Assembly (NCBI GenBank): GCA_032358165.1
Contig: JAALGY010000019.1
Coordinates: forward strand, 1,736,001-1,800,000
Direction: 5' to 3'
DNA: 64,000 nucleotides
Source of the DNA: Diplosphaera chodatii
Lineage: Eukaryota; Chlorophyta; Trebouxiophyceae; Prasiolales; Stichococcaceae
The notes under the pieces were generated by a model, which did not search any database, was not told the origin of the DNA, and saw nothing but the letters and a program-made list of their open reading frames with translations. Each line of letters starts with the position of its first letter. Positions within the stretch are counted from its first letter, which is position 1. A program made the position numbers and the translations under genes. This document shows positions 14,966-52,800 of this stretch, piece after piece.

Positions 14966-15104
14966 TAGGGGCAAAGAGGGCGGCGTGGGCCCTTTGTGGG
15001 CCCACGGCTGTCAGGGAACGATTGTAGGCTGGAAATGGCCCCCTGCACCTCCGCGCTGATCCGCCCCCGAACTACACCCAGGCTTGCCCTGGGGGTGTAC
15101 GTAG

Positions 15105-15176
15105 GTCGCTGTAGTATAACGGTGAGTATCTCCGCCTGTCACGCGGGAGATCCGGGTTCGATTCCCGGCAGCGGCG
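15105..15176 (+). tRNA. tRNA-Asp (anticodon GTC)
   Basis: A 72-nt cloverleaf can be folded by eye. The acceptor 5' strand GTCGCTG pairs with CAGCGGC (15169-15175, one G-U pair), with discriminator G at 15176. The anticodon loop CTGTCAC gives anticodon GTC, flanked by CCGC/GCGG. The T arm is CCGGG-TTCGATT-CCCGG. The internal promoter B box GGTTCGATTCC is intact and the A-box region is TAGTATAACGG. No intron is present. A TTTT at 15194-15197, 17 nt downstream, would serve as a Pol III terminator. The last 20 nt of this gene are also the start of the first unit of the satellite that follows. Confidence 0.96.
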
Positions 15177-18100
15177 ACAGTTTGGAACCGCCCTTTTGGT
15201 GCGGCTCCTGAGCGGGGAGGTGCTGTGGCAGCGCTACACGGCTTCTGGGGTTCCCGGCAGCGGCGCCAGGGTGCTGCCCCTTTTGCTGCCCCTGGGCCTT
15301 GGATTCCCGGCAGCGGCGCGGCCCAGCTGCCTTTTGGGGCGCCCGCGCTCGCTCCGGGGCCTTCGATTCCCGGCAGCGGCGACAGTTTGGAACCGCCCTT
15401 TTGGTGCGGCTCCTGAGCGGGGAGGTGCTGTGGCAGCGCTACACGGCTTCTGGGGTTCCCGGCAGCGGCGCCAGGGTGCTGCCCCTTTTGCTGCCCCTGG
15501 GCCTTGGATTCCCGGCAGCGGCGCGGCCCAGCTGCCTTTTGGGGCGCCCGCGCTCGCTCCGGGGCCTTCGATTCCCGGCAGCGGCGACAGTTTGGAACCG
15601 CCCTTTTGGTGCGGCTCCTGAGCGGGGAGGTGCTGTGGCAGCGCTACACGGCTTCTGGGGTTCCCGGCAGCGGCGCCAGGGTGCTGCCCCTTTTGCTGCC
15701 CCTGGGCCTTGGATTCCCGGCAGCGGCGCGGACCAGCTGCCTTTTGGGGCGCCCGCGCTCGCTCCGGGGCCTTCGATTCCCGGCAGCGGCGACAGTTTGG
15801 AACCGCCCTTTTGGTGCGGCTCCTGAGCGGGGAGGTGCTGTGGCAGCGCTACACGGCTTCTGGGGTTCCCGGCAGCGGCGCCAGGGTGCTGCCCCTTTTG
15901 CTGCCCCTGGGCCTTGGATTCCCGGCAGCGGCGCGGCCCAGCTGCCTTTTGGGGCGCCCGCGCTCGCTCCGGGGCCTTCGATTCCCGGCAGCGGCGACAG
16001 TTTGGAACCGCCCTTTTGGTGCGGCTCCTGAGCGGGGAGGTGCTGTGGCAGCGCTACACGGCTTCTGGGGTTCCCGGCAGCGGCGCCAGGGTGCTGCCCC
16101 TTTTGCTGCCCCTGGGCCTTGGATTCCCGGCAGCGGCGCGGCCCAGCTGCCTTTTGGGGCGCCCGCGCTCGCTCCGGGGCCTTCGATTCCCGGCAGCGGC
16201 GACAGTTTGGAACCGCCCTTTTGGTGCGGCTCCTGAGCGGGGAGGTGCTGTGGCAGCGCTACACGGCTTCTGGGGTTCCCGGCAGCGGCGCCAGGGTGCT
16301 GCCCCTTTTGCTGCCCCTGGGCCTTGGATTCCCGGCAGCGGCGCGGCCCAGCTGCCTTTTGGGGCGCCCGCGCTCGCTCCGGGGCCTTCGATTCCCGGCA
16401 GCGGCGACAGTTTGGAACCGCCCTTTTGGTGCGGCTCCTGAGCGGGGAGGTGCTGTGGCAGCGCTACACGGCTTCTGGGGTTCCCGGCAGCGGCGCCAGG
16501 GTGCTGCCCCTTTTGCTGCCCCTGGGCCTTGGATTCCCGGCAGCGGCGCGGCCCAGCTGCCTTTTGGGGCGCCCGCGCTCGCTCCGGGGCCTTCGATTCC
16601 CGGCAGCGGCGACAGTTTGGAACCGCCCTTTTGGTGCGGCTCCTGAGCGGGGAGGTGCTGTGGCAGCGCTACACGGCTTCTGGGGTTCCCGGCAGCGGCG
16701 CCAGGGTGCTGCCCCTTTTGCTGCCCCTGGGCCTTGGATTCCCGGCAGCGGCGCGGCCCAGCTGCCTTTTGGGGCGCCCGCGCTCGCTCCGGGGCCTTCG
16801 ATTCCCGGCAGCGGCGACAGTTTGGAACCGCCCTTTTGGTGCGGCTCCTGAGCGGGGAGGTGCTGTGGCAGCGCTACACGGCTTCTGGGGTTCCCGGCAG
16901 CGGCGCCAGGGTGCTGCCCCTTTTGCTGCCCCTGGGCCTTGGATTCCCGGCAGCGGCGCGGACCAGTTGCCTTTTGGGGCGCCCGCGCTCGCTCCGGGGC
17001 CTTCGATTCCCGGCAGCGGCGACAGTTTGGAACCGCCCTTTTGGTGCGGCTCCTGAGCGGGGAGGTGCTGTGGCAGCGCTACACGGCTTCTGGGGTTCCC
17101 GGCAGCGGCGCCAGGGTGCTGCCCCTTTTGCTGCCCCTGGGCCTTGGATTCCCGGCAGCGGCGCGGCCCAGCTGCCTTTTGGGGCGCCCGCGCTCGCTCC
17201 GGGGCCTTCGATTCCCGGCAGCGGCGACAGTTTGGAACCGCCCTTTTGGTGCGGCTCCTGAGCGGGGAGGTGCTGTGGCAGCGCTACACGGCTTCTGGGG
17301 TTCCCGGCAGCGGCGCCAGGGTGCTGCCCCTTTTGCTGCCCCTGGGCCTTGGATTCCCGGCAGCGGCGCGGCCCAGCTGCCTTTTGGGGCGCCCGCGCTC
17401 GCTCCGGGGCCTTCGATTCCCGGCAGCGGCGACAGTTTGGAACCGCCCTTTTGGTGCGGCTCCTGAGCGGGGAGGTGCTGTGGCAGCGCTACACGGCTTC
17501 TGGGGTTCCCGGCAGCGGCGCCAGGGTGCTGCCCCTTTTGCTGCCCCTGGGCCTTGGATTCCCGGCAGCGGCGCGGCCCAGCTGCCTTTTGGGGCGCCCG
17601 CGCTCGCTCCGGGGCCTTCGATTCCCGGCAGCGGCGACAGTTTGGAACCGCCCTTTTGGTGCGGCTCCTGAGCGGGGAGGTGCTGTGGCAGCGCTACACG
17701 GCTTCTGGGGTTCCCGGCAGCGGCGCCAGGGTGCTGCCCCTTTTGCTGCCCCTGGGCCTTGGATTCCCGGCAGCGGCGCGGCCCAGCTGCCTTTTGGGGC
17801 GCCCGCGCTCGCTCCGGGGCCTTCGATTCCCGGCAGCGGCGACAGTTTGGAACCGCCCTTTTGGTGCGGCTCCTGAGCGGGGAGGTGCTGTGGCAGCGCT
17901 ACACGGCTTCTGGGGTTCCCGGCAGCGGCGCCAGGGTGCTGCCCCTTTTGCTGCCCCTGGGCCTTCGATTCCCGGCAGCGGCGCGGCCCAGCTGCCTTTT
18001 GGGGCGCCCGCGCTCGCTCCGGGGCCTTCGATTCCCGGCAGCGGCGACAGTTTGGAACCGCCCTTTTGGTGCGGCTCCTGAGCGGGGAGGTGCTGTGGCA

Positions 18101-21100
18101 GCGCTACACGGCTTCTGGGGTTCCCGGCAGCGGCGCCAGGGTGCTGCCCCTTTTGCTGCCCCTGGGCCTTGGATTCCCGGCAGCGGCGCGGCCCAGCTGC
18201 CTTTTGGGGCGCCCGCGCTCGCTCCGGGGCCTTCGATTCCCGGCAGCGGCGACAGTTTGGAACCGCCCTTTTGGTGCGGCTCCTGAGCGGGGAGGTGCTG
18301 TGGCAGCGCTACACGGCTTCTGGGGTTCCCGGCAGCGGCGCCAGGGTGCTGCCCCTTTTGCTGCCCCTGGGCCTTGGATTCCCGGCAGCGGCGCGGCCCA
18401 GCTGCCTTTTGGGGCGCCCGCGCTCGCTCCGGGGCCTTCGATTCCCGGCAGCGGCGACAGTTTGGAACCGCCCTTTTGGTGCGGCTCCTGAGCGGGGAGG
18501 TGCTGTGGCAGCGCTACACGGCTTCTGGGGTTCCCGGCAGCGGCGCCAGGGTGCTGCCCCTTTTGCTGCCCCTGGGCCTTGGATTCCCGGCAGCGGCGCG
18601 GCCCAGCTGCCTTTTGGGGCGCCCGCGCTCGCTCCGGGGCCTTCGATTCCCGGCAGCGGCGACAGTTTGGAACCGCCCTTTTGGTGCGGCTCCTGAGCGG
18701 GGAGGTGCTGTGGCAGCGCTACACGGCTTCTGGGGTTCCCGGCAGCGGCGCCAGGGTGCTGCCCCTTTTGCTGCCCCTGGGCCTTGGATTCCCGGCAGCG
18801 GCGCGGCCCAGCTGCCTTTTGGGGCGCCCGCGCTCGCTCCGGGGCCTTCGATTCCCGGCAGCGGCGACAGTTTGGAACCGCCCTTTTGGTGCGGCTCCTG
18901 AGCGGGGAGGTGCTGTGGCAGCGCTACACGGCTTCTGGGGTTCCCGGCAGCGGCGCCAGGGTGCTGCCCCTTTTGCTGCCCCTGGGCCTTGGATTCCCGG
19001 CAGCGGCGCGGCCCAGCTGCCTTTTGGGGCGCCCGCGCTCGCTCCGGGGCCTTCGATTCCCGGCAGCGGCGACAGTTTGGAACCGCCCTTTTGGTGCGGC
19101 TCCTGAGCGGGGAGGTGCTGTGGCAGCGCTACACGGCTTCTGGGGTTCCCGGCAGCGGCGCCAGGGTGCTGCCCCTTTTGCTGCCCCTGGGCCTTGGATT
19201 CCCGGCAGCGGCGCGGCCCAGCTGCCTTTTGGGGCGCCCGCGCTCGCTCCGGGGCCTTCGATTCCCGGCAGCGGCGACAGTTTGGAACCGCCCTTTTGGT
19301 GCGGCTCCTGAGCGGGGAGGTGCTGTGGCAGCGCTACACGGCTTCTGGGGTTCCCGGCAGCGGCGCCAGGGTGCTGCCCCTTTTGCTGCCCCTGGGCCTT
19401 GGATTCCCGGCAGCGGCGCGGCCCAGCTGCCTTTTGGGGCGCCCGCGCTCGCTCCGGGGCCTTCGATTCCCGGCAGCGGCGACAGTTTGGAACCGCCCTT
19501 TTGGTGCGGCTCCTGAGCGGGGAGGTGCTGTGGCAGCGCTACACGGCTTCTGGGGTTCCCGGCAGCGGCGCCAGGGTGCTGCCCCTTTTGCTGCCCCTGG
19601 GCCTTGGATTCCTGGCAGCGGCGCGGCCCAGCTGCCTTTTGGGGCGCCCGCGCTCGCTCCGGGGCCTTCGATTCCCGGCAGCGGCGACAGTTTGGAACCG
19701 CCCTTTTGGTGCGGCTCCTGAGCGGGGAGGTGCTGTGGCAGCGCTACACGGCTTCTGGGGTTCCCGGCAGCGGCGCCAGGGTGCTGCCCCTTTTGCTGCC
19801 CCTGGGCCTTGGATTCCCGGCAGCGGCGCGGACCAGTTGCCTTTTGGGGCGCCCGCGCTCGCTCCGGGGCCTTCGATTCCCGGCAGCGGCGACAGTTTGG
19901 AACCGCCCTTTTGGTGCGGCTCCTGAGCGGGGAGGTGCTGTGGCAGCGCTACACGGCTTCTGGGGTTCCCGGCAGCGGCGCCAGGGTGCTGCCCCTTTTG
20001 CTGCCCCTGGGCCTTGGATTCCCGGCAGCGGCGCGGCCCAGCTGCCTTTTGGGGCGCCCGCGCTCGCTCCGGGGCCTTCGATTCCCGGCAGCGGCGACAG
20101 TTTGGAACCGCCCTTTTGGTGCGGCTCCTGAGCGGGGAGGTGCTGTGGCAGCGCTACACGGCTTCTGGGGTTCCCGGCAGCGGCGCCAGGGTGCTGCCCC
20201 TTTTGCTGCCCCTGGGCCTTGGATTCCCGGCAGCGGCGCGGCCCAGCTGCCTTTTGGGGCGCCCGCGCTCGCTCCGGGGCCTTCGATTCCCGGCAGCGGC
20301 GACAGTTTGGAACCGCCCTTTTGGTGCGGCTCCTGAGCGGGGAGGTGCTGTGGCAGCGCTACACGGCTTCTGGGGTTCCCGGCAGCGGCGCCAGGGTGCT
20401 GCCCCTTTTGCTGCCCCTGGGCCTTGGATTCCCGGCAGCGGCGCGGCCCAGCTGCCTTTTGGGGCGCCCGCGCTCGCTCCGGGGCCTTCGATTCCCGGCA
20501 GCGGCGACAGTTTGGAACCGCCCTTTTGGTGCGGCTCCTGAGCGGGGAGGTGCTGTGGCAGCGCTACACGGCTTCTGGGGTTCCCGGCAGCGGCGCCAGG
20601 GTGCTGCCCCTTTTGCTGCCCCTGGGCCTTGGATTCCCGGCAGCGGCGCGGCCCAGCTGCCTTTTGGGGCGCCCGCGCTCGCTCCGGGGCCTTCGATTCC
20701 CGGCAGCGGCGACAGTTTGGAACCGCCCTTTTGGTGCGGCTCCTGAGCGGGGAGGTGCTGTGGCAGCGCTACACGGCTTCTGGGGTTCCCGGCAGCGGCG
20801 CCAGGGTGCTGCCCCTTTTGCTGCCCCTGGGCCTTGGATTCCCGGCAGCGGCGCGGCCCAGCTGCCTTTTGGGGCGCCCGCGCTCGCTCCGGGGCCTTCG
20901 ATTCCCGGCAGCGGCGACAGTTTGGAACCGCCCTTTTGGTGCGGCTCCTGAGCGGGGAGGTGCTGTGGCAGCGCTACACGGCTTCTGGGGTTCCCGGCAG
21001 CGGCGCCAGGGTGCTGCCCCTTTTGCTGCCCCTGGGCCTTGGATTCCCGGCAGCGGCGCGGCCCAGCTGCCTTTTGGGGCGCCCGCGCTCGCTCCGGGGC

Positions 21101-24100
21101 CTTCGATTCCCGGCAGCGGCGACAGTTTGGAACCGCCCTTTTGGTGCGGCTCCTGAGCGGGGAGGTGCTGTGGCAGCGCTACACGGCTTCTGGGGTTCCC
21201 GGCAGCGGCGCCAGGGTGCTGCCCCTTTTGCTGCCCCTGGGCCTTGGATTCCCGGCAGCGGCGCGGACCAGCTGCCTTTTGGGGCGCCCGCGCTCGCTCC
21301 GGGGCCTTCGATTCCCGGCAGCGGCGACAGTTTGGAACCGCCCTTTTGGTGCGGCTCCTGAGCGGGGAGGTGCTGTGGCAGCGCTACACGGCTTCTGGGG
21401 TTCCCGGCAGCGGCGCCAGGGTGCTGCCCCTTTTGCTGCCCCTGGGCCTTGGATTCCCGGCAGCGGCGCGGCCCAGCTGCCTTTTGGGGCGCCCGCGCTC
21501 GCTCCGGGGCCTTCGATTCCCGGCAGCGGCGACAGTTTGGAACCGCCCTTTTGGTGCGGCTCCTGAGCGGGGAGGTGCTGTGGCAGCGCTACACGGCTTC
21601 TGGGGTTCCCGGCAGCGGCGCCAGGGTGCTGCCCCTTTTGCTGCCCCTGGGCCTTGGATTCCCGGCAGCGGCGCGGCCCAGCTGCCTTTTGGGGCGCCCG
21701 CGCTCGCTCCGGGGCCTTCGATTCCCGGCAGCGGCGACAGTTTGGAACCGCCCTTTTGGTGCGGCTCCTGAGCGGGGAGGTGCTGTGGCAGCGCTACACG
21801 GCTTCTGGGGTTCCCGGCAGCGGCGCCAGGGTGCTGCCCCTTTTGCTGCCCCTGGGCCTTGGATTCCCGGCAGCGGCGCGGCCCAGCTGCCTTTTGGGGC
21901 GCCCGCGCTCGCTCCGGGGCCTTCGATTCCCGGCAGCGGCGACAGTTTGGAACCGCCCTTTTGGTGCGGCTCCTGAGCGGGGAGGTGCTGTGGCAGCGCT
22001 ACACGGCTTCTGGGGTTCCCGGCAGCGGCGCCAGGGTGCTGCCCCTTTTGCTGCCCCTGGGCCTTGGATTCCCGGCAGCGGCGCGGCCCAGCTGCCTTTT
22101 GGGGCGCCCGCGCTCGCTCCGGGGCCTTCGATTCCCGGCAGCGGCGACAGTTTGGAACCGCCCTTTTGGTGCGGCTCCTGAGCGGGGAGGTGCTGTGGCA
22201 GCGCTACACGGCTTCTGGGGTTCCCGGCAGCGGCGCCAGGGTGCTGCCCCTTTTGCTGCCCCTGGGCCTTGGATTCCCGGCAGCGGCGCGGCCCAGCTGC
22301 CTTTTGGGGCGCCCGCGCTCGCTCCGGGGCCTTCGATTCCCGGCAGCGGCGACAGTTTGGAACCGCCCTTTTGGTGCGGCTCCTGAGCGGGGAGGTGCTG
22401 TGGCAGCGCTACACGGCTTCTGGGGTTCCCGGCAGCGGCGCCAGGGTGCTGCCCCTTTTGCTGCCCCTGGGCCTTGGATTCCCGGCAGCGGCGCGGCCCA
22501 GCTGCCTTTTGGGGCGCCCGCGCTCGCTCCGGGGCCTTCGATTCCCGGCAGCGGCGACAGTTTGGAACCGCCCTTTTGGTGCGGCTCCTGAGCGGGGAGG
22601 TGCTGTGGCAGCGCTACACGGCTTCTGGGGTTCCCGGCAGCGGCGCCAGGGTGCTGCCCCTTTTGCTGCCCCTGGGCCTTCGATTCCCGGCAGCGGCGCG
22701 GACCAGTTGCCTTTTGGGGCGCCCGCGCTCGCTCCGGGGCCTTCGATTCCCGGCAGCGGCGACAGTTTGGAACCGCCCTTTTGGTGCGGCTCCTGAGCGG
22801 GGAGGTGCTGTGGCAGCGCTACACGGCTTCTGGGGTTCCCGGCAGCGGCGCCAGGGTGCTGCCCCTTTTGCTGCCCCTGGGCCTTGGATTCCCGGCAGCG
22901 GCGCGGCCCAGCTGCCTTTTGGGGCGCCCGCGCTCGCTCCGGGGCCTTCGATTCCCGGCAGCGGCGACAGTTTGGAACCGCCCTTTTGGTGCGGCTCCTG
23001 AGCGGGGAGGTGCTGTGGCAGCGCTACACGGCTTCTGGGGTTCCCGGCAGCGGCGCCAGGGTGCTGCCCCTTTTGCTGCCCCTGGGCCTTGGATTCCCGG
23101 CAGCGGCGCGGCCCAGCTGCCTTTTGGGGCGCCCGCGCTCGCTCCGGGGCCTTCGATTCCCGGCAGCGGCGACAGTTTGGAACCGCCCTTTTGGTGCGGC
23201 TCCTGAGCGGGGAGGTGCTGTGGCAGCGCTACACGGCTTCTGGGGTTCCCGGCAGCGGCGCCAGGGTGCTGCCCCTTTTGCTGCCCCTGGGCCTTGGATT
23301 CCCGGCAGCGGCGCGGCCCAGCTGCCTTTTGGGGCGCCCGCGCTCGCTCCGGGGCCTTCGATTCCCGGCAGCGGCGACAGTTTGGAACCGCCCTTTTGGT
23401 GCGGCTCCTGAGCGGGGAGGTGCTGTGGCAGCGCTACACGGCTTCTGGGGTTCCCGGCAGCGGCGCCAGGGTGCTGCCCCTTTTGCTGCCCCTGGGCCTT
23501 GGATTCCCGGCAGCGGCGCGGCCCAGCTGCCTTTTGGGGCGCCCGCGCTCGCTCCGGGGCCTTCGATTCCCGGCAGCGGCGACAGTTTGGAACCGCCCTT
23601 TTGGTGCGGCTCCTGAGCGGGGAGGTGCTGTGGCAGCGCTACACGGCTTCTGGGGTTCCCGGCAGCGGCGCCAGGGTGCTGCCCCTTTTGCTGCCCCTGG
23701 GCCTTGGATTCCCGGCAGCGGCGCGGCCCAGCTGCCTTTTGGGGCGCCCGCGCTCGCTCCGGGGCCTTCGATTCCCGGCAGCGGCGACAGTTTGGAACCG
23801 CCCTTTTGGTGCGGCTCCTGAGCGGGGAGGTGCTGTGGCAGCGCTACACGGCTTCTGGGGTTCCCGGCAGCGGCGCCAGGGTGCTGCCCCTTTTGCTGCC
23901 CCTGGGCCTTGGATTCCCGGCAGCGGCGCGGACCAGCTGCCTTTTGGGGCGCCCGCGCTCGCTCCGGGGCCTTCGATTCCCGGCAGCGGCGACAGTTTGG
24001 AACCGCCCTTTTGGTGCGGCTCCTGAGCGGGGAGGTGCTGTGGCAGCGCTACACGGCTTCTGGGGTTCCCGGCAGCGGCGCCAGGGTGCTGCCCCTTTTG

Positions 24101-26184
24101 CTGCCCCTGGGCCTTGGATTCCCGGCAGCGGCGCGGCCCAGCTGCCTTTTGGGGCGCCCGCGCTCGCTCCGGGGCCTTCGATTCCCGGCAGCGGCGACAG
24201 TTTGGAACCGCCCTTTTGGTGCGGCTCCTGAGCGGGGAGGTGCTGTGGCAGCGCTACACGGCTTCTGGGGTTCCCGGCAGCGGCGCCAGGGTGCTGCCCC
24301 TTTTGCTGCCCCTGGGCCTTGGATTCCCGGCAGCGGCGCGGCCCAGCTGCCTTTTGGGGCGCCCGCGCTCGCTCCGGGGCCTTCGATTCCCGGCAGCGGC
24401 GACAGTTTGGAACCGCCCTTTTGGTGCGGCTCCTGAGCGGGGAGGTGCTGTGGCAGCGCTACACGGCTTCTGGGGTTCCCGGCAGCGGCGCCAGGGTGCT
24501 GCCCCTTTTGCTGCCCCTGGGCCTTGGATTCCCGGCAGCGGCGCGGCCCAGCTGCCTTTTGGGGCGCCCGCGCTCGCTCCGGGGCCTTCGATTCCCGGCA
24601 GCGGCGACAGTTTGGAACCGCCCTTTTGGTGCGGCTCCTGAGCGGGGAGGTGCTGTGGCAGCGCTACACGGCTTCTGGGGTTCCCGGCAGCGGCGCCAGG
24701 GTGCTGCCCCTTTTGCTGCCCCTGGGCCTTGGATTCCCGGCAGCGGCGCGGCCCAGCTGCCTTTTGGGGCGCCCGCGCTCGCTCCGGGGCCTTCGATTCC
24801 CGGCAGCGGCGACAGTTTGGAACCGCCCTTTTGGTGCGGCTCCTGAGCGGGGAGGTGCTGTGGCAGCGCTACACGGCTTCTGGGGTTCCCGGCAGCGGCG
24901 CCAGGGTGCTGCCCCTTTTGCTGCCCCTGGGCCTTGGATTCCCGGCAGCGGCGCGGCCCAGCTGCCTTTTGGGGCGCCCGCGCTCGCTCCGGGGCCTTCG
25001 ATTCCCGGCAGCGGCGACAGTTTGGAACCGCCCTTTTGGTGCGGCTCCTGAGCGGGGAGGTGCTGTGGCAGCGCTACACGGCTTCTGGGGTTCCCGGCAG
25101 CGGCGCCAGGGTGCTGCCCCTTTTGCTGCCCCTGGGCCTTGGATTCCCGGCAGCGGCGCGGCCCAGCTGCCTTTTGGGGCGCCCGCGCTCGCTCCGGGGC
25201 CTTCGATTCCCGGCAGCGGCGACAGTTTGGAACCGCCCTTTTGGTGCGGCTCCTGAGCGGGGAGGTGCTGTGGCAGCGCTACACGGCTTCTGGGGTTCCC
25301 GGCAGCGGCGCCAGGGTGCTGCCCCTTTTGCTGCCCCTGGGCCTTGGATTCCCGGCAGCGGCGCGGCCCAGCTGCCTTTTGGGGCGCCCGCGCTCGCTCC
25401 GGGGCCTTCGATTCCCGGCAGCGGCGACAGTTTGGAACCGCCCTTTTGGTGCGGCTCCTGAGCGGGGAGGTGCTGTGGCAGCGCTACACGGCTTCTGGGG
25501 TTCCCGGCAGCGGCGCCAGGGTGCTGCCCCTTTTGCTGCCCCTGGGCCTTGGATTCCCGGCAGCGGCGCGGCCCAGCTGCCTTTTGGGGCGCCCGCGCTC
25601 GCTCCGGGGCCTTCGATTCCCGGCAGCGGCGACAGTTTGGAACCGCCCTTTTGGTGCGGCTCCTGAGCGGGGAGGTGCTGTGGCAGCGCTACACGGCTTC
25701 TGGGGTTCCCGGCAGCGGCGCCAGGGTGCTGCCCCTTTTGCTGCCCCTGGGCCTTGGATTCCCGGCAGCGGCGCGGCCCAGCTGCCTTTTGGGGCGCCCG
25801 CGCTCGCTCCGGGGCCTTCGATTCCCGGCAGCGGCGACAGTTTGGAACCGCCCTTTTGGTGCGGCTCCTGAGCGGGGAGGTGCTGTGGCAGCGCTACACG
25901 GCTTCTGGGGTTCCCGGCAGCGGCGCCAGGGTGCTGCCCCTTTTGCTGCCCCTGGGCCTTGGATTCCCGGCAGCGGCGCGGCCCAGCTGCCTTTTGGGGC
26001 GCCCGCGCTCGCTCCGGGGCCTTCGATTCCCGGCAGCGGCGACAGTTTGGAACCGCCCTTTTGGTGCGGCTCCTGAGCGGGGAGGTGCTGTGGCAGCGCT
26101 ACACGGCTTCTGGGGTTCCCGGCAGCGGCGCCAGGGTGCTGCCCCTTTTGCTGCCCCTGGGCCTTGGATTCCCGGCAGCGGCGC
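15157..26184 (+). repeat. 205-bp tandem satellite (about 53.8 units) derived from the tRNA-Asp 3' end
   Basis: The unit repeats without a single indel from the tRNA T loop (15157) to 26184. The 15-mer TTCCCGGCAGCGGCG, which is the 3' end of the tRNA, occurs three times per unit at spacings of 89, 53 and 63 bp (first unit: 15162, 15251, 15304, then 15367). Each copy is followed after 17, 15 or 13 nt by TTTT, so each sub-repeat looks like tRNA 3' end plus trailer plus Pol III-type terminator. Units are almost identical; sparse substitutions include C-to-A in the third sub-repeat (GACCAG at 15731, 16961, 19831, 21266, 22701, 23931), G-to-C before the third core (17966, 22681) and one CCTGG at 19611. 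Because 205 is not divisible by 3, the 175-residue open frame seen over and over is a by-product. No protein-coding function is supported. Confidence 0.97.
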
Positions 26185-26345
26185 ATACTTTTGGGGTGGG
26201 TGGAGGTGCTGCGGAGCCCCCGCCCGCTCGCCTGCATGGGCGGCGGCAGCTGGTTGCAGCGGGCGCGGTGGGAGGGGCTGCTGCCGCCTGGGCTCGCTCC
26301 CTTGGGCCTTCGATTCCCGCCCTCTGCCGCCTCTTTTGAGCTAGC
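26185..26345 (+). repeat. Degenerate right margin of the satellite
   Basis: After the last exact core the sequence still resembles a decayed unit: ACTTTTGGGG, GGAGGTGCTGCGG, GGCGGCGGCAGCTGG, GGGCTCGCTCCCTTGG, then CCTTCGATTCCCGCC near 26307. It then leaves the repeat near TTTTGAGCTAGCC. It marks the older, no longer homogenised edge of the array, in contrast to the sharp left edge at the tRNA. Confidence 0.7.
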
Positions 26346-49889: not shown

Positions 49890-52800
49890 ATGCCGCCAGC
49901 GGCGGCTGACATGAATCAGCCAGTGGGCAGTGAACAGAACGGTGACCTGCCGAAGCCTGGCGAGCTCCTCCGCCTGGACTTCAGGCGGCCAGGTGCATCA
50001 CCTGCGGATGGCGCTGGCTGTGCAACTGACCCGATGCGGCCGTCTCCGTCAGGCAGCATCCGCCTGGTTCAGGTGGGCATCGCAGCCGGCACAGATACTC
50101 TTCAGCTTGGCACTGCAACGTGCCGATTCTCCTACGGGCACCAGGTGTTGTAAACGCTTTTGCCCATGGAGCAGCTCCTCAGAAGAATATTGGCCTGCAT
50201 CGACTGCCCTGCAGTGGAACATCGAGCGCGGCTACAAGCTGGCGGCGGTGGTCGCCGAGCTGCGGGGGTGCGGCGCGGACGTCATCGCGCTGCAGGAGGT
50301 GGACGTCGGCTGCGACCGCAGCGGCGGCGAGGACACCGGCAAGCCTGCTTTGACGCCTCTACTCTGGGCCGCTTTTATGTCTCTAGATGCTGGACAAAAA
50401 AGCATGCTGGACAAAAAAGCATTCGGACTTCAAAGTCCAAAGAGGTCTGCTTTTCAATGTTGTACCAACCCTGAGCGGCCTGGCATTTCGCGGTTGCAGG
50501 GCGCCGCATCGCGGAGGCGCTGGGCATGAACTACGTGTTCCTGTGCGAGTTCGAGGAGCTGCGGTCGCCGCTGCGCGACGCCGCGACGCAGGGCGGCGGT
50601 GTGCACGGCAACGCCCTCCTGAGCCGCTTCGACATGTCAGACGCGCGCGTCATACAGCACAGGTGCGGCTTGCACCTGGGATGGCCTCCGTACCAAACAA
50701 TCCTCAACATTTCAAGAGCAAGGAAAGCTTATTGCAGAGTTAATGCTAGCCTGTAAATCAACAAGCAACGCTGGTCCTTTGCCGACAAGCTACGATGCAG
50801 GCGAAACAGCCTCAAGAAGCTGCAGTCAGCGGTGTAATGCGTCAGAGTTTAATAATACAATTTCGACCTACATTAGGCTGCAAGAGCTGTCGCTGCGTTC
50901 AGTTCCGGCTGTAGTCAGCGCTGCTGCATGTTCCCTGACGACCGCCAATGCCAGGTCATTTGAGCCGTCCTGCTCTGACGGGTCGTGCGCGTGCGATGCC
51001 GCTGCAGCAGCTGCCCAGGCCTCCGCCTGACCTGCCTCCGCACGCCGCTGGTCACAGTCCTCTGCATCCGCCTCGCCAGCAGCAGTGCCCTGGTGCCGCT
51101 CCGCATCGCCATCCGGCAGTGCTGACCCCGCTGCCTCGCCGCTGGCCGACATTCTGCTGGCTGGCGAGCTGCTGCTGCTGCTGCCGGTTGCAATGGCACT
51201 GCCGTCTCCAGCATCCTGCCTCGCATTGGAGCACGGTTGCGCCAGAGGGGTGCCGACCGCCGCCGCCGCCGGCCGCTGCGGCGGCGTGCCCAGACCCCGG
51301 GGCGGCGGCCCGTGGCCCGCTGCCGGCGTCGCCGCCGCCCTCTGCGGGCTGGCGGCCGAACTGGGCTGCAGACTCTGCTGCAGGGTGGGCGCCGGGGCAT
51401 GCCTCACGGCGGCGCCCGGCCTCGGCAGCGCGCCCGCCGCAAAACCCTGCCTGGTCGCCTGCTGCTGCTCTGCTGCATGGCCGCCGCCGCCGCCGGCGCC
51501 GCTGCCGCCGCCGGCCCTGTCGCCGCCGGGCTGCCTGGCTTGCGCCGCGGCGTCACCGTTTGGAGACGGCGGCGTCAACACGAGCGCGGGCCCATCCGCG
51601 TGCGCGCGACAGCAGGCCGCCCGCACCACCGTGCCGCCCAGGCCCCGCCTCGCCGCCATGTGCTCCGCTGCACGTGCCAGTATCTGCAGGCAGAACTGAC
51701 AAGAGGCTTATGCCTTGCACTTGTCGGGCAGTTCTGAGACCAGACTGTTCCGATATGCGCAGCTCAGCTCCTGCTGCGACCCCCCACAGACTGTTGCTTC
51801 GCTGCCATGCCGGAGGGGCCTTCACCAGCTGGCTGAAGCACTGTGTGCACTAGTAGTGCCCGCGCACTTGGCAGGCCAGCCATGTCGGTGGCATGACGGC
51901 GCAGCGCAGCAATCACAGCCGCGTCGGCCGGGGCCGGCGGCGCCGCGGGCGCCAGGTAGATGGTGGTGCCGTCGTAGTCGGGGTAGCTGTTGGCGGCGGC
52001 CATCCACAGCAGCGAGCCGCCGATGGCGCGGCCGGCCGCGGCGTGCTCGCCCACGGTGCTGAGCACCTGTGGGGTCATCGCACCGAGCGCAGCTTACACA
52101 GACTGCTGGAATCCTGGGTGAGCTTGGCTGACTGACATGCGTTGCAGCCATGGTGGGCCAGGAATATGGCTGTATTTTACCAGCAGATTGCTCGGCGAGC
52201 AGTGTCCATCGCAACTTGCCGAGTAATAACAGAGCTCTTGGCTGGGCCTGACGCATGATAGCCATGCTGTGCGTAGCTATGAAGTAGCCGTCCGCGGGCT
52301 TTTAGTGAGCCAGCGTACAGCTATAGAGGCACATCTCAGTGGATCACTGTTATCCGGGCTCACCTTCTGGAAGAACTCCTGACGCGCTGTGCCAGAGCCC
52401 TTCTTGCCGAATTCGGCCAGCACCACCGGCTTGCCGATGTGCGCCGCAACATCCACATGGCAGTTGACCCAGCGGCGGGCAAAGCGCAGCTGCGCCGCAT
52501 CGTCCTTGCCCTGTGGCAGGGACACTCAGGCTGTGCTCCAGGTTCCGGCTACAAGAGCAGTCCTGAGCCTGCCCAATGTATCACTCGGCTTCTGTGCAGT
52601 TCGCGGTCCAGTTGCGGCATGGCGCTGCTGAACTGCCTGCTGCCGATCGCTTCAACGTGCAGCACACAGTGGCGCTGTGGAGTGCTCCATGTTGGTGAGC
52701 GGCCGCCGCAGCGGGCGCAGCGCACCTTGAGCCAGCTGTCGGGCCACAGGTGGAAGGACGCAAAGTCGATGTGGCGGCCGGCCGAGTTGCGCGCCCAGTC

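Follow-up and report, generated by a model that had tools for sequence, protein, structure and literature searches.

In a 64,000-nucleotide stretch of the Diplosphaera chodatii genome (C17:1736001-1800000, the whole of which is called the window below; the genome comprises 85.6 Mb in 55 contigs, and loci are named here after their contig), an 11-kb tandem array begins inside the T loop of an intact tRNA-Asp(GTC) gene and repeats the 3′ end of that same gene. The pattern is real, wider than first noted, and unusual: arrays seeded at the B-box border of tRNA genes are found beside tRNA-Asp, -Gly, -Lys and -Glu genes, each made of the adjoining gene's own tail, and in one family, tRNA-Glu, there is evidence that array and gene end change together.

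Results

The array beside tRNA-Asp(GTC) in the window

The array and its borders consist of the following features, in window coordinates.

15105..15176, + strand: intact tRNA-Asp(GTC) gene (ARAGORN; Rfam RF00005, 58.3 bits); the genome search found four identical copies, this one included
15155..15165, + strand: B box of the tRNA-Asp gene, GGTTCGATTCC, assigned by the B-box consensus; the array begins two bases inside its 5′ border
15157..26184, + strand: tandem array, 53 units of 205 bp plus 163 bp (Tandem Repeats Finder, TRF; unit-by-unit comparison)
15157..15245, + strand: monomer A of the first unit, 89 bp, with TTCGATT and CCCGGCAGCGGCG, 17 nt, TTTT
15246..15298, + strand: monomer B of the first unit, 53 bp, with TGGGGTT and CCCGGCAGCGGCG, 15 nt, TTTT
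15299..15361, + strand: monomer C of the first unit, 63 bp, with TTGGATT and CCCGGCAGCGGCG, 13 nt, TTTT
26022..26184, + strand: last, partial unit, 163 bp, 0 mismatches (unit-by-unit comparison)
26185..26345, + strand: degraded sequence past the right border of the array, containing TTTTGGGG and, at 26309-26319, the tail-like TTCGATTCCCG, then TTTT (by eye)

The first-pass annotation, made from the letters of the window, had described an array starting in the T loop of an intact tRNA-Asp(GTC) gene and running for about 53.8 indel-free units of 205 bp, and this was borne out by ARAGORN, Rfam, TRF and the comparison of units. From 15157, the first base of the T loop, to 26184, TRF gave a period of 205, 53.8 copies, 99% matches and 0% indels; the base preceding the start differs, with G in the gene where the array has C. 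Forty-six of the 54 units are equal to the consensus, and the remaining eight hold 12 substitutions, at positions 145, 152, 166 and 171 only. The 20-mer at the tail, TTCGATTCCCGGCAGCGGCG, occurs exactly 96 times in the 85.6 Mb, always at one of the four tRNA-Asp loci (96/96), and its reversed pattern, used as a control, 0 times; its recurrence is therefore not due to chance.

The borders had been described as sharp on the tRNA side and decayed on the right. A sharp left border and a degraded stretch on the right were indeed found, and the change on the right is abrupt, from the mismatch-free partial unit of 163 bp to about 150 bp of degraded remnant, with no decay gradient visible within the array. 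Homogenisation running from the tRNA side, also suggested at first, is not apparent from the units: the few variants are spread across units 3 to 43, and the pair C166A+C171T is present in units 9, 23 and 37. This recurrence at a spacing of 14 units suggests a duplication of blocks of about 2.9 kb.

The 205-bp unit is itself composite, being made of three monomers of 89, 53 and 63 bp which each carry the last 13 bases of the tRNA, and which each consist of a version of the T loop, CCCGGCAGCGGCG, a spacer and TTTT. The segment CCCGGCAGCGGCG is the 3′ strand of the T arm and of the acceptor stem and includes the discriminator base. The T loop is partly altered in monomers B and C of the window unit.

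Other tRNA-Asp loci and conservation of the tail

The four tRNA-Asp genes found in the genome are identical, and three of them head an array of their own tail. The search for other tRNA-Asp loci, proposed at the outset, thus added two more arrays of this design. The three loci outside the window are listed below.

C17:1184279, - strand (C17b): array of about 4.9 kb, 64 tails with the gene's own, 24 distinct monomers
C45:1486845, - strand (C45a): array of 0.5 kb, 9 tails with the gene's own
C45:2023778, + strand: tRNA-Asp gene, no array

A similarity search was made with the window array as query, the window's own array lying outside the scored candidates. Two units within the C17b array are of the window type, with 93-94% identity, so that the window and C17b arrays, which lie 567 kb apart, share ancestry or have exchanged units.

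Tails of the Asp arrays were located with up to three mismatches allowed, which brings a mild bias into any count of their conservation. With the gene's own, 162 tails were counted in the window array, 161 of them exact over 13 bases. The tail is followed by TTTT in 162 of 162 monomers of the window, 64 of 64 at C17b and 8 of 9 at C45a, that is 234 of 235 overall. Ten types of Asp monomer were then compared, using the commonest sequence per type and locus and leaving out one window monomer of unassigned type. The proportion of differing positions was 0/585 in the 13-base tail, 294/540 in the 12 bases before TTTT, and 79/315 in the T loop.

At C45a, the tRNA-Asp gene has a 3′ trailer of its own without TTTT; the first TTTT stands at +69, in the next monomer and after the second copy of the tail, so that the transcript may carry two tails. 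Upstream of the genes, a perfect 6-bp stem-loop ends 4 to 11 bases before each of the four tRNA-Asp genes, with four different stem sequences. The one in the window (15077..15093, + strand, CCCAGG/CCTGGG, just 5′ of the gene) is not below shuffled sequences (p 0.515), and the other three gave p 0.005, 0.055 and 0.10. Two tRNA-Glu genes (L049 and L050) also have an upstream stem, TCAGG..CCTGA.

Own-tail arrays in other tRNA families

A profile search with RF00005 scored 63 of 1132 candidates. Thirty-nine are on C54 and C55, which we take for the mitochondrial and the plastid contig, respectively, as C54 carries ATP6 and NADH dehydrogenase 1, and C55 an RNA-polymerase fragment. Twenty-three are nuclear genes, and one partial hit (C41:29992, 35.9 bits) was left out. 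Two tRNA-Glu genes were added, C13 by its similarity to tRNA-Asp and C19 by an array query, which makes 25 nuclear tRNA genes examined. Arrays of the gene's own tail were found at 10 of these 25, and at 8 of the 23 in the RF00005 list. Besides the three tRNA-Asp loci, they adjoin three of the four tRNA-Gly(GCC) genes found (C7, about 0.75 kb; C18, 6.8 kb; C46, 3.4 kb), both tRNA-Lys(CTT) genes (four tails at C21 and two at C35, the gene's included) and two of the four tRNA-Glu(CTC) genes (27 tails at C13 and 10 at C19, the gene's included). Units range from 52 to about 235 bp across loci. The tRNA 3′ end as seed of the array, an idea of the first-pass annotation, is thereby supported: two more tRNA-Asp genes share this architecture, and so do genes for tRNA-Gly, -Lys and -Glu, each of which has its own tail repeated.

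When up to three mismatches were accepted, no unit step of the arrays was without a tail; a single Gly tail, at C18, is inexact, and there the step is 258 bp. The tail list of Gly C46 had 41 rows, of which 20 were false tails 15 bases off and 21 remain, and the last match listed for Glu C13, 778 bp away, is unrelated. Outside the tail, units compared between loci are 65-69% identical for Gly and 82% for Lys; these units were cut at exact 13-base tails, so that identity of the tail is there by construction and was not used as evidence.

No array was found within 0.6-1.5 kb downstream of the genes for Thr(TGT) (two), Thr(AGT) (two), Arg(TCT) (two), Arg(TCG), Val(TAC) (two), Gln(CTG) and Gly(CCC), nor within at least 3.6 kb at the two other tRNA-Glu genes and the fourth tRNA-Asp gene. 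When the last 22 bases of these 14 genes and 88 nt of flank were used as query, no second copy was detected at their own loci, a test which a bare 20-nt tail might escape. One match was on another contig, at C9:1013242-1013285, where 45 query bases from tRNA-Glu C44, belonging to its tail and trailer, are matched at 91%; either a gene that escaped detection or a stray tail may lie there, and among the matches listed there is no tRNA on C9.

Occurrence of the unit at many loci without a tRNA neighbour had been set beforehand as telling against the seeding idea, and it was not found, by exact search for the Asp 20-mer and among the best candidates scored for Gly, Lys and Glu. The units of these last three were seen only at tRNA genes of their own family, or with their gene part at related tRNA genes. 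The arrays have the long head-to-tail arrangement of near-identical units of a satellite or minisatellite; abundance at many loci was not seen, each family having 1-3 loci that each adjoin their own tRNA gene.

The arrays begin at the border of the B box

To locate the edge of the repeats, 24 nuclear tRNA genes were compared with their own flanks using 11-mer seeds, over 585-600 bp downstream and 185-600 bp upstream. Such seeds would miss repeats starting past about base 62 of the gene. Downstream direct repeats of the gene's own tail were found for nine of the 24 genes, all starting between -4 and +1 from the start of the T loop; no upstream direct repeat was found for any of the 24. In linear position, the repeats start at 55 and 54 for Lys (T loop from 54), 54 for Glu (T loop from 54), 50, 48 and 53 for Gly (71-nt gene, T loop from 52), and 50, 50 and 53 for Asp (72-nt gene, T loop from 53). 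The edge of the C19 Glu array is the same as that of C13, both reading CCCGGGCTTTCGATT. Independently of the seeds, TRF applied to 21 tRNA loci reported five arrays with a unit above 30 bp, five of five beginning at the T loop, and no other such array in the 64-kb window.

At all 11 loci concerned, namely the ten arrays and the C49 locus described below, the copied stretch therefore begins within -4 to +1 of the T-loop start, which is the 5′ border of the B box. The other end of the copied stretch varies from locus to locus, with the length of the unit or, at C49, at base 412 of the flank. The first copy retains the intact tRNA gene, and each later copy consists of the gene's own tail, terminator and flank. 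If paralogous arrays are counted once, by our own judgement, five events remain (Asp, Lys, the Gly array, Gly C49 and Glu). That all five fall in the same 6 of 62 positions has a probability of 8×10−6 under a uniform model, for a stretch chosen post hoc.

A distant copy at the fourth tRNA-Gly gene

The tRNA-Gly(GCC) gene of C49 has no array. A second copy of its tail, from GGGTTCGATT onwards, was found 3474 bp downstream on the same strand. The first 198 bases of this copy are identical at 197 positions, and the similarity reaches base 412 of the flank, at 96%. The locus (C49:1494600-1498550, L095-L096-L090) thus has about 3 kb between tRNA-Gly with its flank and a second tail with its flank. 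Of the stretch between the copies, 1649 bp were tested and occur a single time in the genome; among the open reading frames of at least 110 codons in the whole interval, the longest has 280.

Gene end and array differ in step at tRNA-Glu

The two tRNA-Glu arrays were compared, and the results bear on the relation between gene and array. At C13, the gene and its 26 units all end in CAGCGGAA (27/27), and at C19 the gene and its nine units all end in TGGCGGAA (10/10). No further match to the Glu tail pattern was found in the genome beyond these two loci. Their units are 83-85% identical, gene and first unit are 88% identical, and the junction is common to both; judged by this likeness, the two arrays share ancestry, and gene end and array tails differ in step between them.

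The C19 gene has five differences from that of C13, at positions 7 (G to A), 15, 48, 66 (C to T) and 67 (A to G). In standard numbering, 7 and 66 pair with each other in the acceptor stem, as A7-T66 at C19 and as G7-C66 at C13; position 67 faces T6, whether it is A (C13) or G (C19). At 7, 66 and 67 the two other tRNA-Glu genes agree with C13, so that it is probably the C19 gene that has changed.

Other observations

In the window, ten frames were searched against Pfam and a single match was obtained, below its cut-off: an exon-like frame at 49915-50529 (+ strand) resembles the endonuclease/exonuclease/phosphatase family weakly (23.2 bits for a cut-off of 24.5). A 21-mer, GACATCNATNCTTAGACTAGG, is present in the 3′ flank of an Arg tRNA (L058 1405-1425) and of a Gly tRNA (L090 221-241), that is in 2 of 96 loci. 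It may mark one end of a dispersed element, and the window has no copy of it even when up to three mismatches are allowed.

Discussion

A proposed mechanism for the arrays

A left edge that is fixed and a right edge that is free are as expected of tandem duplication with one breakpoint set by a bound complex. The reading that we favour, and hold to be reasonably probable, is that tandem duplications are anchored at the B box of tRNA genes, perhaps at stalled polymerase III or stalled forks, are amplified, and are kept in concert with the end of the gene. The process would start when RNA polymerase III, or a replication fork that comes in from the 3′ side, stalls at the TFIIIC-bound B box; the nascent end would then jump back to a template in the 3′ flank, and unequal exchange would account for later growth. 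As the 3′ end of the gene may itself take part in this exchange, selection on the tRNA would preserve tail and TTTT through the array. Crowding of polymerase III in yeast is seen at the 5′ borders of the A and B boxes, where TFIIIC is bound (PMC5356446), and tRNA genes can be replication fork barriers (PMC5368702). In work on Entamoeba, it was suggested that slippage may be favoured where replication pauses at active tRNA genes (PMC2652664).

We also put forward, tentatively and with more doubt than conviction, a stronger proposal: the 3′ end of a tRNA would be the living edge of its own satellite, exchange between array and gene would rewrite the acceptor stem while the body of the gene compensates, as with A7 facing T66 in the C19 Glu gene, and such satellites would be born repeatedly at the B-box border of polymerase III genes.

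Several points weigh against the favoured reading. The count of five events is our own, and paralogous arrays are not independent. Neither an array nor a distant copy was found for 14 of the 25 tRNA genes, so the B box is not sufficient. The edge at the B box is true of the whole window unit, not of the inner monomers B and C, and the T loops of these two monomers have diverged, so that exchange with them could renew no more than the last 13-16 bases of the gene. At C49, the tested part of the interval is not itself duplicated, so that a second step, deletion or insertion, is needed. The stall is read from the position of the edge, and the tRNA-Glu change may have begun in the gene or in the array.

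Alternative explanations

The arrays could instead be kept by selection as useful series of tail and TTTT, either as back-up terminators for polymerase III read-through or as a boundary or TFIIIC-binding array, the duplications themselves being random. The conservation of tail and TTTT next to unconserved spacers between Asp monomers fits this, as does the displaced first TTTT of C45a; in yeast, polymerase III often reads through for 50-200 nt (PMC5356446). Yet the 14 genes mentioned above manage without arrays, and duplications starting between the T loop and the gene end, which would be equally useful, were unseen within the reach of the 11-mer seeds, up to about base 62. As to TFIIIC binding, the full GGTTCGATTCC is kept in the copies of Gly C7 and C18 and in some of the copies of Asp C17b and C45a, but the GG that opens the B box is absent from the copies of the window, Glu, Lys and Gly C46. 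We consider this explanation unlikely. For the same loss of GGTTCGATTCC in these last four sets of copies, arrays of intact B boxes acting as TFIIIC decoys were rejected as a general rule.

That a small element inserted again and again at the 3′ end of the tRNA by site-specific recombination, of the tyrosine-recombinase type and with the tail as attachment core, is a reading that we find highly improbable. The first-pass annotation had considered such a landing site, and the shared block, from T loop to gene end, does look like an attachment core; Williams is said to have described, in 2002, a class of prokaryotic tRNA insertion sites with a block of this extent. An integrative element would duplicate its core only, and no flank; at C49, flank up to base 412 was copied along with the tail. 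Moreover, the tails in the arrays are separated by only about 30-190 bp of repeated flank and units go down to 52 bp, leaving no room there for cargo, and what lies between the tails is dissimilar among tRNA families (by eye). The landing site was thus not supported.

That a retroposon made or spread the array, be it a tRNA-derived short interspersed element (SINE) or a captured primer-binding site of a retrotransposon, is barely credible: monomer B of the window does read tail plus CCA, an 18-nt match to the mature tRNA end, but the related monomers of C17b have TCA or TCT in place of CCA, and this candidate primer-binding site was rejected on that ground. The copies also lack an A box, only the part from about the T-loop start to the gene end recurring. 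Neither a tRNA-like head with A and B boxes nor dispersed units were found, by the exact Asp 20-mer and otherwise among the best candidates.

An assembly artefact is equally hard to credit, since ten arrays with differing units and ages, including the 24 distinct monomers of C17b, have one common edge; long near-identical arrays are nevertheless hard to assemble, and copy numbers may be off.

A mini-tRNA (acceptor stem plus T arm) in each monomer was likewise rejected as a general rule. Asp monomers of C17b and C45a that contain GGTCGCTCCGGGGGTTCGATTCCCGGCAGCGGCG pair well, resembling a tRNA without D and anticodon arms. Folding energies are generally not below those of dinucleotide shuffles with the tail fixed; with at most 8 distinct sequences per locus, the best single case gave p 0.03, uncorrected, and several were worse than shuffles.

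Relation to known systems and significance

In multigene arrays such as ribosomal DNA, units are kept alike through exchange, in concerted evolution. Here, by contrast, a functional tRNA gene end acts as a member of a non-coding array. In Chlamydomonas, tRNA genes and SINEs related to tRNA-Asp were reportedly described by Cognat in 2008. The tRNA gene arrays of Entamoeba also tie tRNA genes to tandem repeats; in the part of that work cited here, the unit contains whole tRNA genes and short repeats (PMC2652664), whereas in the loci that we scanned there is one tRNA gene per locus, an intact gene heading the array of its own 3′ end. A tandem unit containing tRNA-derived sequence is also found in OAX of Xenopus, PolIII/TAN of newt and SINE-derived satellites; the cited part of PMC10702118 treats OAX and PolIII/TAN as SINE- or tRNA-like repeats, not attached to a source gene. 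The present units, in contrast, have no A box and lie directly on their source gene. The plant tDNA clusters, with their Tyr-Tyr-Ser and Pro arrays, share local amplification at tRNA genes, but there, as far as the cited part of PMC11700998 goes, whole genes are amplified, and here 3′ ends. A search that covered open-access full texts and few subscription papers listed no title or abstract beginning that describes a tRNA gene joined to an array of its own 3′ end.

The origin of a satellite is rarely visible. In this one genome, different stages can be seen, ranging from one added tail (Lys C35) over arrays of a few units to one of 11 kb, all with the same start point in a functional gene. It becomes possible to test by position whether polymerase III genes cause replication to break or stall at their B box, and the tRNA-Glu loci suggest that the end of an essential gene can be drawn into concerted evolution with non-coding repeats.

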